Positions 1 to 5,868 of a DNA stretch of 64,000 bases are shown piece after piece. Both the position numbers and the translations under genes were made by a program. Under the pieces are notes generated by a model, which was not told the origin of the DNA, searched no databases, and was given only the letters and a program-made list of their open reading frames with translations. The DNA comes from Magnetospirillum aberrantis SpK. GTDB lineage: Bacteria > Pseudomonadota > Alphaproteobacteria > Rhodospirillales > Magnetospirillaceae. Position 1 is the stretch's first letter. Every line of letters begins with the position of its first letter. Where the stretch lies: the NCBI RefSeq assembly GCF_011022235.1, contig NZ_JAAIYP010000035.1, positions 1 through 64,000 of the forward strand, written 5' to 3'.

Positions 1-283
1 GCGCGAACTGAACACCTTGATGGGCTTCTTCCAGGTGGGCGAGCAATCCCGTGCCGTGGCCTCCACCAAGACGGAGACGCGCAAGCCGACCGCCAAGGCC
101 GACGCGGCGAAGCCAACCGCTTCGACCAAGCCGGCGGCGGTGAAACCGGCGGCCAAGGCGGCACCGGCACAGCGCAGCCATCTGGCCAAGCTGCATTCCA
201 AACAAACCCAAGCCGCGACCCCAGCACCTTCGGCAACCGCCGCAACCAACGGGACGTCGGGAGAGGATTGGGCCGAGTTTTGA
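1..283 (+). CDS. Methyl-accepting chemotaxis protein, C-terminal fragment with tether pentapeptide
   Basis: Only the 3' end of the gene is in the window; the reading frame enters at base 2 and stops with TGA at 281-283. The visible part begins RELNTLMGFFQVGEQ, which resembles the last helix of a chemoreceptor signalling domain. About 65 residues rich in Ala, Pro, Lys and Thr follow, which look like a flexible linker. The protein ends in DWAEF, which fits the x-[aromatic]-x-x-[aromatic] pentapeptide (NWETF in E. coli Tar and Tsr) that docks CheR and CheB. The next gene is cheR, so an adaptation tether is the natural reading. The receptor identity is inferred from the tail and context because the conserved hairpin tip is outside the window. 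Confidence 0.72.
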   Translation, partial: RELNTLMGFFQVGEQSRAVASTKTETRKPTAKADAAKPTASTKPAAVKPAAKAAPAQRSHLAKLHSKQTQAATPAPSATAATNGTSGEDWAEF

Positions 284-312
284 AATCTTAATAATTTCTG
301 CTAAGAATGGTT

Positions 313-341
313 GGGCCCTGCCGGCATCGTCGGCGGGGCCC
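313..341 (+). terminator. Stem-loop after the chemoreceptor gene
   Basis: GGGCCCTGCCG (313-323) pairs with CGGCGGGGCCC (331-341) through 11 positions with one G-T wobble and a 7-nt loop. It lies 30 nt after the chemoreceptor stop and before cheR. No run of T follows, so if it terminates it is a weak or factor-assisted terminator. Its right arm runs into the first copy of an 18-bp tandem repeat. Confidence 0.45.
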
Positions 342-391
342 ATTATTGAGGGGTGCCCAATTATTGGGGGGTGCCCCATTATTGGGGGGTG
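338..391 (+). repeat. Three tandem copies of an 18-bp repeat just upstream of cheR
   Basis: Three imperfect copies lie head to tail at 338-355, 356-373 and 374-391. Each has the pattern CCCATTATTGGGGGGTG with one or two changes. The array ends 5 nt before the GTG chosen as the cheR start, so its last G-rich block also works as the cheR ribosome-binding site. The unit length is a multiple of three, so changes in copy number would not shift frame if the stretch were translated. Confidence 0.85.
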
Positions 392-396
392 AATGC

Positions 397-1263
397 GTGC
401 AGCAACGGGCCGACGCAGTGGCTGAGAACGGCCATCGCCGGGAATTCGAGCTGGGCGACGACGAATTCCGTTTTCTTGCCGGCTTCATGTCGCGCGAGAC
501 CGGAATTGTACTTTCCGATCACAAGCGCCAGATGGTTTGCGGCAGACTGGTGAAACGCCTGCGGGCCCTTCACCTGCGGTCTTTCGCGGAATACGTGGAG
601 TTGTTGCAGGGACCGGGGGCAAACGCCGAGATCGAGAATCTGGTCAACGCCATCACCACCAACATCACCAACTTCTTCCGCGAACCGCATCATTTTCATT
701 TCCTGCATGACCACATCTTGGCATCGCGCGTCGCCGAAAGGCCCCGCCGGCCGCGTGTCCGCATCTGGTCGGCGGGCTGTTCCTCGGGCGAGGAACCCTA
801 TTCCATCGCCATGACCATGGCCGACGTCCTGAAACCAAACGACGGCTGGGACGCGCTGATTCTCGCCACCGACATCGACACCAATGTCCTGCGTCGGGCC
901 GAAGCCGGCCTCTATCCGGCCGAAGCGCTCAAACATATTCCTGAGAGCTATCGCAAACGCTTTGTCCGTCGTGTCCCCGGAGACCACGACAAGATTCAGA
1001 TGGCCGAGGAATTACGCACACTTATTCGTTTCCGGCGATTGAACCTGCACGACGACTGGCCGATGAAAGGCCTGTTCGACGTCATCTTTTGCCGCAACGT
1101 CGCCATTTATTTCGACAAGCCGACGCAGAGGAAACTGTTCAACCGTTACGCGGACTATCTGAACATTGGTGGAATGCTGTATCTTGGCCATGCCGAGTCC
1201 TTGATCGGTGTCACCGACCGGTTCGAGGTGGCGGACAAGACCGTTTACAGGCGGATCAAATGA
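397..1263 (+). CDS. cheR: Chemotaxis protein-glutamate O-methyltransferase CheR
   Basis: CheR methylates glutamates on chemoreceptors with S-adenosylmethionine, the adaptation step opposed by CheB. About 288 residues are predicted. The N-terminal helical domain contains FLAGFMSRETGIVLSDHK. The methyltransferase core follows: NFFREPHHF, the SAM-binding loop WSAGCSSGEEPYSIAM, ATDIDTNVL, and FDVIFCRNVAIYFD near the C terminus. I chose GTG at 397 because the G-rich block at 384-391 is a good ribosome-binding site and the family fold starts soon after. The frame is open back to an ATG at 307, but that stretch only translates a hairpin and an 18-bp repeat. The stop overlaps the cheD start (ATGA), so the two are translationally coupled. 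Confidence 0.95.
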   Translation: MQQRADAVAENGHRREFELGDDEFRFLAGFMSRETGIVLSDHKRQMVCGRLVKRLRALHLRSFAEYVELLQGPGANAEIENLVNAITTNITNFFREPHHFHFLHDHILASRVAERPRRPRVRIWSAGCSSGEEPYSIAMTMADVLKPNDGWDALILATDIDTNVLRRAEAGLYPAEALKHIPESYRKRFVRRVPGDHDKIQMAEELRTLIRFRRLNLHDDWPMKGLFDVIFCRNVAIYFDKPTQRKLFNRYADYLNIGGMLYLGHAESLIGVTDRFEVADKTVYRRIK

Positions 1264-1889
1264 ACGGGAACGGGGTCTGGGGGGCCCAAGCCGACGAGGC
1301 GGAACGCCGACGCTGGTTTGATCCCACTTTCAAGATCATGGCGATCAAGGTGCTGCCGGGCGAGCATTATGTCTCGACCGCCGGACAGGAGATGATCGTC
1401 ACCGTCCTTGGTTCCTGCGTCGCCGCCTGCGTCTGGGACACCCGGCTCAAGATCGGCGGCATGAACCATTTCATGTTGCCCGATTCGGGGTCCGATGTGC
1501 CGGTGGACAAGGCCATGCGCTTCGGCAACTTCGCCATGGAAGAGTTGATCAATGACGTTCTGCGCCGTGGCGGGCGGCGCGATTCCATGGAAATCAAGGT
1601 GTTCGGCGCCGGCAACGTCTTGCCCGGCGTGGGCACCGCCACGGCCTCGGTCGGCGACCGCAACGCCAATTTCGTCCGCCGTTATCTGCGCGAGGAAGGC
1701 TACCGCATCGCCGCCGAGGATTTGGGAGGCCCCCACCCCCGGCGTATCCACTTCTTCCCACGCCTGGGCAAGGTGATCCGGCTGTTCCTCAAGAAGGACG
1801 TGGAACGCGCGGTGGTCAACCGCGAAATCTCGTATCGCACCCGCCTCCAGACCGTCGAGGTCGAGGGCGACGTCGAATTGTTCACCTGA
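1260..1889 (+). CDS. cheD: Chemoreceptor glutamine deamidase CheD
   Basis: CheD deamidates specific glutamines on chemoreceptors to glutamates, creating methylation sites, and in many bacteria also binds CheC-type phosphatases. The 209-residue product has the family landmarks: GEHYVST near residue 35, the catalytic cysteine in VLGSCVAACVWD (Cys53), the catalytic histidine in GGMNHFMLPD (His70), and KVFGAGNV further on. The start ATG at 1260 overlaps the cheR stop by four bases. The frame is open further upstream, but that part lies inside cheR. About 20 residues precede the conserved domain, so a later start cannot be excluded. Confidence 0.93.
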   Translation: MNGNGVWGAQADEAERRRWFDPTFKIMAIKVLPGEHYVSTAGQEMIVTVLGSCVAACVWDTRLKIGGMNHFMLPDSGSDVPVDKAMRFGNFAMEELINDVLRRGGRRDSMEIKVFGAGNVLPGVGTATASVGDRNANFVRRYLREEGYRIAAEDLGGPHPRRIHFFPRLGKVIRLFLKKDVERAVVNREISYRTRLQTVEVEGDVELFT

Positions 1890-1900
1890 GGGGACGCGCC

Positions 1901-2965
1901 ATGACCACGCCGCGCGTCCGCGTCCTTATCATCGACGATTCCGCCCTGATGCGGCAAATGCTGAACGCCATCCTGTCGTCCGATCCGGCCGTCGAGGTGG
2001 TGGGCACCGCCCCCGACCCCATCGTCGCCCGCGAGAAGATCAAGGCGCTCAACCCCGACGTCCTGACGCTGGATGTGGAAATGCCACGCATGGATGGGCT
2101 GGCGTTCCTGGAAAAGCTGATGACGCTTCGCCCCATGCCGGTGGTGATGGTGTCTTCGCTGACCGAAAAGGGCGCCGAAGTCACCATGAAGGCCATGGAA
2201 CTGGGCGCGGTCGACGTATTTTGCAAACCCACCGATTCCGCGACCGGCGGACTTCAGGCCCATGGCCGCGAACTGATCGACAAGGTGCGCGCCGCCGCCC
2301 ATGCCCGCGTGCGGGCGCTCAGCGACCGCCGTCCGGTCGCGACGGCGCCGCGCCTGTCGGTGACCACCATCTACAAGTCCACCGACCGTCTGGTGGCCAT
2401 CGGCTCAAGCACCGGCGGGGTCGAAGCCTTGCGCGACATCGTCCTGGCGCTGCCGCCCGACTCGCCGCCCGTGGTCTGCACCCAGCATATCCCCCCGAAA
2501 TTCTCGGCCAGTTTTGCCGAGCGGCTGAACGGCATGGCGGCGGTGCGGGTCAAGGAAGCCGCCGACGGCGACCGCGTCGTGGCCGGCCACGTCTACATCG
2601 CGCCGGGCGATCAACACATGGAGGTTCGCCGCTCCGGCGCCGCCCTGGTGATCCACCTGCACGATGGCCCGCTGGTCACCGGGCACAAGCCCAGTGTCGA
2701 CGTGCTGTTCCGTTCGGTGGCCGAGGCCTGCGGATCAAAGGCGGTTGGCGTCATCCTGACCGGCATGGGCCGCGATGGCGCTGACGGATTGCTGGCCATG
2801 CGCCGGGCTGGCGCCGCCACCATTGGCCAGGACGAAACAAGTTGTGTGGTTTACGGCATGCCGAAATCGGCGCGCGAGTTGGGGGCGGTGGAACGCGAAC
2901 TTCCCCTCTCGCGCATCGCCGAGGAAATCCTTAGGCTGTGCCACGCCGACGTGACGAGGACATGA
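1901..2965 (+). CDS. cheB: Chemotaxis response regulator protein-glutamate methylesterase CheB
   Basis: CheB removes methyl groups from chemoreceptors when phosphorylated by CheA and can also deamidate glutamines. The 354-residue protein has an N-terminal receiver domain (IIDDSALMR, phospho-acceptor Asp58 in LTLDVEMPRMDG) and a C-terminal esterase domain. The catalytic triad is visible as Ser170 in AIGSSTGGVEA, His196 in CTQHIPP and Asp292 in GMGRDGADG. It lies 11 bp after cheD and 4 bp before the next gene. cheR, cheD and cheB form the adaptation module; cheA, cheW and cheY would be expected upstream of the window. Confidence 0.97.
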   Translation: MTTPRVRVLIIDDSALMRQMLNAILSSDPAVEVVGTAPDPIVAREKIKALNPDVLTLDVEMPRMDGLAFLEKLMTLRPMPVVMVSSLTEKGAEVTMKAMELGAVDVFCKPTDSATGGLQAHGRELIDKVRAAAHARVRALSDRRPVATAPRLSVTTIYKSTDRLVAIGSSTGGVEALRDIVLALPPDSPPVVCTQHIPPKFSASFAERLNGMAAVRVKEAADGDRVVAGHVYIAPGDQHMEVRRSGAALVIHLHDGPLVTGHKPSVDVLFRSVAEACGSKAVGVILTGMGRDGADGLLAMRRAGAATIGQDETSCVVYGMPKSARELGAVERELPLSRIAEEILRLCHADVTRT

Positions 2966-2969
2966 ATAG

Positions 2970-3464
2970 ATGAACGACAGCACCTGTACCCGCCTGTTGG
3001 AATTGCTGGCCCGTTGGCAGGCGTTTTCCGAGTTGCAGCAACGCGCCTTCGAATTCCTGGCGGCCGAGGCCGTGGCGACAGGGCAGGAATTCGAACATTC
3101 CACCGATGGCGCGACCTCGGTCCTGACCCGTATCGGCCAGTTCGCTGGGGAAAGCGCCGCCGGCGACCTGCAAGCGGAAACCTTTCAGGTGGTGCAGAAA
3201 CTTCAGTCGGCCGACCGCTCGCGCCAGGGCCTGGAACAGGTGGCGTCGGTGCTGCACACCTTGCGCAACCAGCACGCCGAATTGGTGAGCGCCACCCGCG
3301 ACACCGCCCATGTGCCGGAAACCGAGCACATGCTGAATGCCTGGATCGACTCCATGGCCAGCAACGTCAATCTGGCGGACTGGCGCCGCCGCCTGGTGGA
3401 CGCCCTGCACGGCAGAGCACCGTCACCCATCGCCCCCGCAGCGGACGAAGACGAGTTATTCTAA
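2970..3464 (+). CDS. Small helical protein ending the che cluster; candidate CheT/CheZ-like CheY phosphatase
   Basis: The 164-residue protein looks almost wholly helical and has no signal peptide or membrane segment. It begins 4 bp after cheB, so it belongs to the che operon. The helix QKLQSADRSRQGLEQVASVL carries Asp82-X3-Gln86, the same D-X3-Q spacing as the catalytic Asp143/Gln147 of CheZ. A D-X3-Q motif is also reported for Sinorhizobium meliloti CheT, likewise encoded at the end of a che operon. The C terminus ADEDELF is acidic with a terminal aromatic residue, reminiscent of the CheY-binding tail of CheZ. CheY-P dephosphorylation is therefore my proposal; overall similarity to either family cannot be judged by eye. 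Confidence 0.6.
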   Translation: MNDSTCTRLLELLARWQAFSELQQRAFEFLAAEAVATGQEFEHSTDGATSVLTRIGQFAGESAAGDLQAETFQVVQKLQSADRSRQGLEQVASVLHTLRNQHAELVSATRDTAHVPETEHMLNAWIDSMASNVNLADWRRRLVDALHGRAPSPIAPAADEDELF

Positions 3465-3606: not shown

Positions 3607-5868
3607 ATGCAGAGGATTTTGGCGCGTTTTCCACTGAAATTTCAAATCGGCGCCATCGTCACCACGGCCATCCTCATTTTCGCCGTGGTCGCGGCAGGAG
3701 TATTCTTCAGTTCCTCGCTCCAGGCCGATCTGGCGGATCAGGCTGGTGCCGCCACCCGCCTCAAGGATGAATCCGGCGCCCTCGCCTTTGCCTTGCTGGA
3801 TGCCCGCCGCCGGGAAAAGGACTTCCTGGCACGGCGCACCGACAAGGAAGTGGCCAACCACGGCCACAGCCTGGATGACGCGCGCTCCCGCCTGGACGCC
3901 ATCGCCGCCGCCGCCCCCGACAGCGTCACCGCCATTCGGCCCTTGCTGGAATCCTACGCTGCCACTTTCGCGACCACGGTAACGGAACAGCGCCGCATCG
4001 GCTTCAGCGAAAACGACGGCTTGATGGGAAGCCTGCGCGGCTCGGTCCACCAAGTGGAAGAAGCGCTGAAAGCCCACAACGAATTATCGCTGGCCGTACT
4101 GATGCTCCAGATGCGCCGGCACGAAAAAGACTTCCTGGCCCGCCGCGATCCCAAATATCAGGCTGAAATGAACAAACGAGCGGCCGAATTCGCCACCGCC
4201 CTGGCCTCTTCGTCCCTGCCGCTCGCCATCCGCGACGACATCACCGCCAAGATGGCTGTCTACCACCAGGATTTCGCCGCTCTAGTCCAAGCGACCCTGA
4301 GGCTGAGCGACCTGATCTCGGACCTGTCCGGGCTGTACAGCCGGATGGAGCCCCTGGTCGAGACCTTGACCATCCAGGCCACCGACACCGCCCGCGCCGC
4401 CGAAAACGAAAAGACACGGATCGACGCCATCGCCCGTCGCGGCCTTGCCGTGGCGCTGGGCCTGGGAACCTTGGCGCTGGCCGTGCTGGGCGCGGCCATC
4501 GCCCACGGCATCTACACTCCCTTAGCGCGCATGGCCAAGGTGATGGAGCGGTTGGCTGAAGGCGAACTGGAAGTCGAGGTGCCGTCGCGCGACCGCGCCG
4601 ACGAAGTGGGGACCATGGCCCACGCCGTCCAGGTCTTCAAGATCAACGCCCAGCAAGCCGAACTGATCCGCGCCGCCCAGGAACAGGAACGCGCGCGCGC
4701 CGAAGCCGAGAAACTGGCGGCGTTGCGCGCCATGGCCGACACGGTCGAACATGAAACCCGCGCGGCGGTGGACCGGGTGGCCGACCACACCGGCGCCATG
4801 CGGAACAACGCCGGCGAGATGGCCCATTCCGCCCAGATGGTCAGCGTCAGCTCGCAAAGCGTCGCCGCCGCCGCCGCCCAAGCCCTGGCCAACGTCCAAA
4901 ACGTCGCTTCGGCGTCGGAAGAACTGTCCTCTTCCATCGCCGAGATCGGCAACCAGGTGGAATCGGCCGGCACCATCACCCGCCGCGCCGTCAATTCGGC
5001 GGAAACCGCCCAGAACACCATCTCCCGCCTGGCCGACGCCGTCGCCCATATCGGCGAAATGGCCCAGATGATCGGCGACATCGCCAACCAGACCAACCTG
5101 TTGGCGCTGAACGCCACCATCGAGGCGGCCCGCGCCGGCGACGCCGGCAAGGGCTTCGCCGTGGTTGCCGGCGAAGTCAAAAGTCTGGCCACCCAGACCA
5201 CCCGCGCGACCGAGGACATCGGCACCCAGATCGTTGCCATCCAGACCACCACGACCGAGGCGGTTCAGGCGGTCTCAAGCATCGTCGCCGCCATCCGCGA
5301 CGTTGACGGCATTTCCCAGGGCATCGCCGCCGCCATCGAGCAGCAAGGCGCGGCAACCCTTGAAATCGCCCGCAACGTCACCCAAACCTCGGACGCCGCC
5401 CAAGAGGTTTCGCTTCGCATCACCAGCGTCTCCGACGAAGCCGCGGCGTCGGGCCAACGCGCCGGTCAGGTCAGATCCGTATCCGAGGAGATGGCGGAAG
5501 CCATCGAACACTTGCGTCACACCCTGGTCCGTACCGTCCGTACCGCCACCCGCGAGGTGGACCGCCGTGCCCTTCCCCGCTACCGGCTGGACATGCCGGC
5601 GGTGCTGACGCTGGAAAGCGGCGCCATCGACATTCATGTCGAGGATTGTTCGGAAGGTGGGGCCACAATCGCCCTGAACGGCGCCGATACGATCACCACC
5701 GGTCAGCGCCTGACCCTGTCCGTCCCCGGCCTGGGCGGCGACTTGCCGGCCGAGGTGGTGGCGGTGGAAGACGGCCACGCCCACTTGCATTTCGCCCTGG
5801 ACCAAGCCGCCGCCCAAACTTTCCACGACCGCGTCGCCAAACTCGCGGCCGAGCAACCGGCGGCATGA
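3607..5868 (+). CDS. Methyl-accepting chemotaxis protein with paired-helix sensor and C-terminal PilZ domain
   Basis: A membrane chemoreceptor of 753 residues. A transmembrane helix near residues 13-35 leads into a long periplasmic helical sensor. The sensor holds two copies of an R-x-EKDFLARR element (about residues 70 and 170), typical of the HBM bimodular sensor. A second transmembrane helix lies near 285-305, then HAMP and the signalling domain with the tip [18 protein letters not shown]. The last 100 residues form a PilZ domain with both c-di-GMP motifs: R654-X3-R658 (RALPR) and DCSEGG at 680-685. Such receptors, for example Azospirillum Tlp1, let c-di-GMP influence chemotaxis. The ligand is unknown. 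The gene ends 4 bp from the convergent mipZ. Confidence 0.95.

Follow-up and report, generated by a model that had tools for sequence, protein, structure and literature searches.

Directly behind cheB in a chemotaxis (che) gene cluster of Magnetospirillum aberrantis SpK lies a small gene, and the question that this locus raises is what its protein does there. The first-pass annotation had described a small protein directly after cheB and proposed that it is a phosphatase of the CheT/CheZ type. The open reading frame is real: it extends from 2970 to 3464 on the forward strand of the window (the whole stretch of 64,000 nucleotides that was analysed), starts with ATG, encodes 164 aa and is separated from the cheB stop by 4 bases. 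The features of the locus are as follows.

1..283, + strand: probably the C terminus of an MCP truncated at the contig edge, ending in EDWAEF (WxxF type)
307..1263, + strand: cheR, true start probably later (PF01739, E 2e-63)
1260..1889, + strand: cheD, start estimated by eye, product ending in VEGDVELFT (PF03975, E 6e-28)
1901..2965, + strand: cheB (PF01339, E 2e-66)
2970..3464, + strand: CheT-like putative response-regulator phosphatase, 164 aa (conservation, CheT profile match)
3000..3107, + strand: N-arm, residues 11-46, matching the N-arm of long receptor-like relatives (HMM of 17 long N-arms, window E 7e-7)
3159..3425, + strand: C-arm, residues 64-152, matching the C-arm of the long relatives (hhalign of A2 versus A5, Prob 97.9, E 3e-13)
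3201..3227, + strand: LQSADRSRQ, residues 78-86, with the putative catalytic pair (D82 codon 3213-3215, Q86 codon 3225-3227)
3441..3461, + strand: C-terminal tail ADEDELF, a proposed docking peptide (LF ending in all 22 rows)
3607..5868, + strand: MCP with a C-terminal PilZ domain (PF00015 and PF07238)

Position 1 of the window is also the edge of a contig (C35; genome size 4.15 Mb), and the cluster has to be completed from elsewhere. The WxxF ending is a tether at the C-terminal end of receptors, and many MCPs at the same place in related clusters have one; the stretch before cheR is probably the end of an MCP, as in these clusters. Another contig of the same genome (C43) has cheY-cheA-cheW and the first part of an MCP at its end, with the CheA assignment backed by PF02895, and in a complete relative (G007) cheY and cheA are followed by cheD-cheB-gene-MCP on a single strand. 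Based on this contig end and this gene order, the full cluster is most likely cheY-cheA-cheW-mcp-cheR-cheD-cheB-gene-mcp, an inferred order and not a join of contigs. Outside the window, gene names come from phmmer comparisons with our own reference set. On the same strand, the small gene is followed by the MCP-PilZ gene at 3607-5868, a possible c-di-GMP input.

The 164 aa protein on its own says little in database searches. A Pfam scan gave two sub-threshold matches only, both to unrelated families, an NCBIfam scan gave nothing and a sequence search of the PDB gave no match. The proposed catalytic residues are where they had been placed: residue 82 is D and residue 86 is Q, and together they form the sole DxxxQ of the protein. 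Since a D-x3-Q arises in 53% of shuffles of the protein, the presence of the motif alone is uninformative and the weight rests on its conservation. In an alignment of 22 short proteins, including the one of the window and excluding a copy that is frame-disrupted (G010, L024), every row has D82, Q86 and the final LF, at a pairwise identity of at least 34% (mean 56%). The alignment has 34 invariant columns, among them L78, Q79, D82, R83, R85, Q86, L163 and F164, and in three rows one additional F follows the terminal LF. Thus, both the Asp82-X3-Gln86 pair and the acidic-aromatic C terminus (ADEDELF) of the first-pass annotation hold, and the orthologues on which it had made the idea depend all conserve D82 and Q86. 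D and Q are also among just five invariant columns each in alignments of the long relatives (20 rows) and of CheT (15 rows), the rows of which were partly chosen through the DxxxQ motif.

The short gene is present in 18 of the 61 genomes searched, which corresponds to 18 of the 37 genomes of the family, and in all 18 a CheD is encoded on the same contig about 1.2 kb away. Seven of the 61 genomes have CheD and no match to the short gene, and 36 have neither.

The closest known protein for comparison is CheT. According to the accessible part of PMC12654446, CheT of S. meliloti forms a complex with CheR and speeds the dephosphorylation of one of two CheYs; the same part reports no significant homology to known chemotaxis proteins and gives CheY2, CheD and CheT as atu0520, atu0521 and atu0522. 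The accessible part of PMC8429497 describes rhizobial che clusters that include CheT. As a source of CheT sequences we used a family whose gene order suggests Rhizobiaceae; of 41 genomes from this family, 20 have CheD. All 20 CheD loci contain a frame with QxxDxxxQ after cheB-cheY-cheD, and these frames were taken as CheT because their order matches that of atu0520-atu0522. The alignment comprises 15 of the 20 loci (L175, L183, L185, L186 and L190, which were left out, all hold QxxDxxxQ as well); its rows are CheT by gene order, and the S. meliloti CheT sequence itself is not among the compared sequences. An acidic tail with final F or L is found in 11 of the 15 rows and is lacking in four; of the five further loci four have a tail of this kind and the fifth is cut by a contig end.

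The profile of the window family matches the 15 CheT with a Prob of 84.6 and an E-value of 6.8e-6 (hhalign E-values here refer to a single pair only), over 79 columns running from DxxxQ through the tail. The score of 39.8 was reached in none of 60 heptad-block shuffles, which had a maximum of 21.3. The long family matches the same CheT rows at a Prob of 89.4, and again 0 of 60 heptad-block shuffles reach the score. Both the window protein and CheT have QxxDxxxQ, an acidic tail and a place in a che cluster with cheD. However, the CheT rows are 100-146 aa long compared to 164 aa for the window protein, and cheT follows cheD (cheB-cheY-cheD-cheT), whereas the window gene follows cheB (cheR-cheD-cheB-gene). 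Since the gene is not directly after cheD, we file its product as CheT-like and not as a CheT orthologue. Motif and position had both been described as comparable to those of S. meliloti CheT; motif and profile bear this out and the position does not.

The other half of the proposed type is CheZ. It had been assumed that CheZ is generally missing from alphaproteobacteria, but PF04344 is above its cut-off in 51 of the 61 genomes searched, and the own genome has three matches, each with FQDITGQ. With three CheZ genes present, the idea that the gene is a stand-in for a missing CheZ fails. Both proteins have a D-x3-Q pair and an acidic aromatic C terminus, and long helices are weakly predicted for the window protein; the latter, however, has no Pfam match to CheZ (PF04344) at E <= 10 and lacks the FQDxTGQ consensus, its LQSADRSRQ having only the D and the Q in common with it. 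A direct profile match is absent as well: the short family against 12 CheZ gave a Prob of 1.0 and an E-value of 0.053 in the wrong register, and against seven CheZ a Prob of 0.2, not above shuffle background. The CheT profile likewise failed to match CheZ directly. The CheT half of the original proposal is therefore supported by the conservation of D82 and Q86 and by the CheT profile, and membership in CheZ is not.

Searches with the family profile led to another group of proteins. At E <= 0.01 and with up to nine candidates scored per genome, the short-family profile matched at least 11 of the 385 genomes of the class, two of them in the own family; the other matches are mostly receptor-like proteins, and one match (G103) was left out. 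L048, a match without the motif and without an MCP part, was dropped by hand. With a profile built from nine C-arms, matches were obtained in 52 of 289 genomes. One of the 24 places listed at E <= 5e-11 is the window protein, and the rest of those read are long forms. L075 and L076 are long forms which keep D, Q and the tail, with FQVQDRAKQ replacing QFQD. The seven weaker places that were read (L081-L087) comprise six CheZ and a single long form. The resulting set of long forms comprises 20 proteins of 353-535 aa from 18 genomes. All 20 have Q[FY]QDx3Q in the last 40% of the sequence and a final [IV][ED][LM]F, a count that is not independent since the profiles that found the rows include the motif. 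MCPsignal (PF00015) was found in all seven long proteins scanned with Pfam, and no name for a family combining PF00015 with a C-terminal Q[FY]QDx3Q turned up in the family searches. Three of the 20 (L096, L098, L106) exceed 1.6 on the Kyte-Doolittle scale over 19 residues, the usual threshold for a membrane stretch, and these may reside in the membrane. In the protein of G070 the arm occurs twice, the second time without DxxxQ.

Thirteen of the 20 long forms are encoded next after cheB, one before cheR and three directly before cheY (L096, L098, L106), and three of the 20 are located away from cheA, cheR, cheB and cheD within the stretch read. Outside the class more long forms were found, with tails such as DITFF, and cheA heads the cluster in four of the five stretches that reach cheA. 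Short forms occur there as well. One is encoded before cheY in G707 (L143), and for three others no che cluster lies within the 13 kb that were read. The former (L143:6172-6720, + strand) encodes 182 aa with MQFQDMTSQ and the tail GDVELF and directly precedes cheY-cheA-cheW-cheR-cheD-cheB; its occurrence outside the class suggests that short forms arose more than once. The three others (L134, L135, L136) are 189-201 aa long, with FQFYDxxxQRLxH and the tail DDIELF. In the own genome, contig C34 encodes beside a second cheR-cheB pair a 599 aa protein (L091:7123-8922, - strand) with LQIGDITRQ, two receptor-tip-like stretches and the tail EIDDLLF, which may be another receptor-like relative. In L050, L097, L100, L101, L103, L107 and L113 the long form is followed, directly or nearly so, by genes for a STAS protein, a receiver protein with an RssB-like match (labelled RR_PP2C) and a third, unnamed product of about 300 aa, a set that resembles a second output branch.

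CheZ is linked to the window protein via this long family only, since the short family and CheT have no direct match to CheZ. The long C-arms match 12 CheZ with a Prob of 86.7 and an E-value of 4.4e-6 with FQDxxxQ in register, although five of these 12 had been found via the profile of nine of the same long C-arms; against seven independently chosen CheZ (E. coli and six Pfam matches) the values are 51.3 and 1.5e-4 in the same register. In neither comparison was the score reached in 60 shuffles (41.0 versus a maximum of 30.2 for the 12 CheZ, 33.1 versus 31.0 for the seven, the latter being close). Ten ordinary MCP arms from the same clusters did not match CheZ. When the 20 long C-arms were scanned singly, CheZ alone recurred (Pfam 3/20, NCBIfam 5/20), with weak matches below the cut-off (best E 0.003-0.004). 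Profile searches of the PDB with A2, A5 and A8 had no CheZ among the matches at E <= 10; a Thermotoga-type MCP (2ch7) was found at E 2. The best PDB match of A5, the chaperone CesA (E 9e-4), does not cover the motif and was taken for a coiled-coil match. The accessible part of PMC7750401 gives the same DXXXQ beside FQ for the CheZ of Azorhizobium. Taken as a comparison of sequences, these data point with moderate strength to the long family as a bridge to CheZ.

How the short form relates to the long one can be seen from its two arms, both of which match the 353-535 aa chemoreceptor-like proteins, a relation that is new. The C-arms of the two families align at the Prob of 97.9 (E 3e-13) listed above. 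An HMM built from the 17 long N-arms alone matches 22 of 22 short proteins at residues of about 9-50, with E-values of 3e-8 to 1e-4 among 2813 sequences; outside the short and long proteins it has one match at E <= 1, an MCP at E 0.02. The distance from W16 to D82 is 66 residues in the window protein versus 246 in the L112 protein, and the missing piece of about 180 residues is the MCP hairpin with its conserved tip. Accordingly, the two families have in common both arms, the tail and, for 13 of the 20 long forms, the same gene place, whereas the MCP signalling hairpin belongs to the long form and PF00015 was absent from the window protein in the Pfam scan. In a tree of 39 rows, built on the neighbouring CheB and not on the short or long protein, a single clade (100/99) unites the seven short-form clusters, next to it stand two long-form clusters (99/91), and all of these are nested in a wider set of long-form clusters. 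Because both arms match the long family and because of this nesting, loss of the hairpin is the simplest history.

The tail, too, is found in another protein of the cluster. In a classwide sample CheD is present in 19 of 142 genomes, 16 of which have a short or a long form (in G169 on another contig). In the other three (G099, G150, G082) the che cluster encodes a small QxxDxxxQ protein picked by pattern; as the pattern also matched two spurious-looking frames, these proteins are suggestions only, and a search of the order of G099 found no second copy of its protein. Among the alphaproteobacterial loci read, 40 of 44 distinct CheD tails have [ILVFM][DE][LF]F within eight residues of the end, and none of the tails counted for other Che proteins has the same pattern (CheR 0/24, CheB 0/41, CheA 0/13, CheW 0/21, CheY 0/28). 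Outside the class the CheD of G444 and G707 have the tail and that of G607 does not. The short-family tails often have D or E in front of the E, in place of the hydrophobic residue of the CheD tail. Judged by its residues, the tail is common to CheD and the phosphatase-like proteins, and this offers a direct and testable docking hypothesis.

AlphaFold with 11 sequences predicted helices at residues 3-58, 64-110, 118-132 and 135-146 with a mean pLDDT of 57.9, and a single-sequence model had shorter helices and a pLDDT of 44.5. D82 and Q86 fall within the predicted helix 64-110, at low confidence (pLDDT 58), and the predicted helices would fit a hairpin. A Foldseek search with this poor model (pLDDT 58) found nothing at E <= 0.001, and CheZ is absent from the 50 listed of its 177 matches.

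Taken together, we consider it likely that the 164 aa protein is a response-regulator phosphatase of the CheT/CheZ type that arose from a receptor-like one when the CheA/CheW-binding tip was lost. In CheZ, an Asp contacts the lysine of the receiver and a Gln positions the water. By analogy, the helix with D82 and Q86 would dock on a phosphorylated receiver domain, most likely that of the CheY encoded by the first gene of the same cluster (as seen in G007 and on contig C43). D82 would contact the active-site lysine of the receiver, Q86 would place the water that hydrolyses the aspartyl phosphate, and the acidic LF tail would serve as a docking peptide. By descent, the protein would be a shortened member of a receptor-like rod family with the same site, which has lost the hairpin with the CheA/CheW-binding tip. 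Since this hairpin is lost, the phosphatase would no longer be held in the receptor array by that route.

The same conserved helix might instead bind a receiver domain or CheR without any dephosphorylation, making the protein a non-catalytic adaptor that tunes signalling and adaptation traffic. Such a role would fit the complex of S. meliloti CheT with CheR described in the accessible part of PMC12654446, the tail of the short protein, which is as close to that of CheD as to that of CheZ, and a genome that already has three CheZ genes. Against this stands the presence of both catalytic-type residues in every row of three diverged alignments, although binding alone could conserve them too, and we regard an adaptor as unlikely. 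Slightly less likely still is a phosphatase acting on a different receiver, either the receiver domain of CheB or the RR_PP2C protein often encoded behind the long form. The gene adjoins cheB in the window and in 13 of the 20 long-form loci, several of which continue with STAS and RR_PP2C genes; however, the long form lies directly before cheY in three loci (L096, L098, L106), and the CheT substrate reported in the accessible part of PMC12654446 is a CheY.

A decaying, functionless fragment of a chemoreceptor-like gene would explain why the short form lacks the receptor hairpin of the long one and why one copy (G010, L024) looks frame-disrupted, but 22 open-frame rows with at least 34% and on average 56% pairwise identity and 34 invariant columns make this very improbable. 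A classical CheZ diverged beyond the reach of Pfam, for which DxxxQ and the acidic aromatic tail might be quoted, is barely credible given a Prob of 1 against 12 CheZ, a Prob of 0.2 against seven CheZ and true CheZ genes in the same genome.

Beyond a phosphatase shortened from a receptor-like protein, a wider reading is possible, which we put forward only tentatively. CheT, the window protein and the long forms may constitute one family of CheZ-type phosphatases. The long form would be a rod of the array that has its site on the descending helix and dephosphorylates where the phosphate is made, and the relatives of Magnetospirillum, perhaps also the rhizobia, would have freed the enzyme by loss of the tip. 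Since CheD has the same C-terminal tail, a single partner, perhaps phosphorylated CheY, would bring in the off switch as well as the receptor deamidase. The titles and abstract openings of the open-licence literature searched contained no link of CheZ or CheT to a receptor-like protein. The comparisons presented here tie CheT to a family which Pfam sees as receptor-like only, and this family in turn resembles CheZ. For CheT-like proteins they open a possible route of origin via the receptor-like family. If the long forms are active, proteins that are recognised only as MCPs would be signal-terminating enzymes, and models of the che clusters in which they are found would change.
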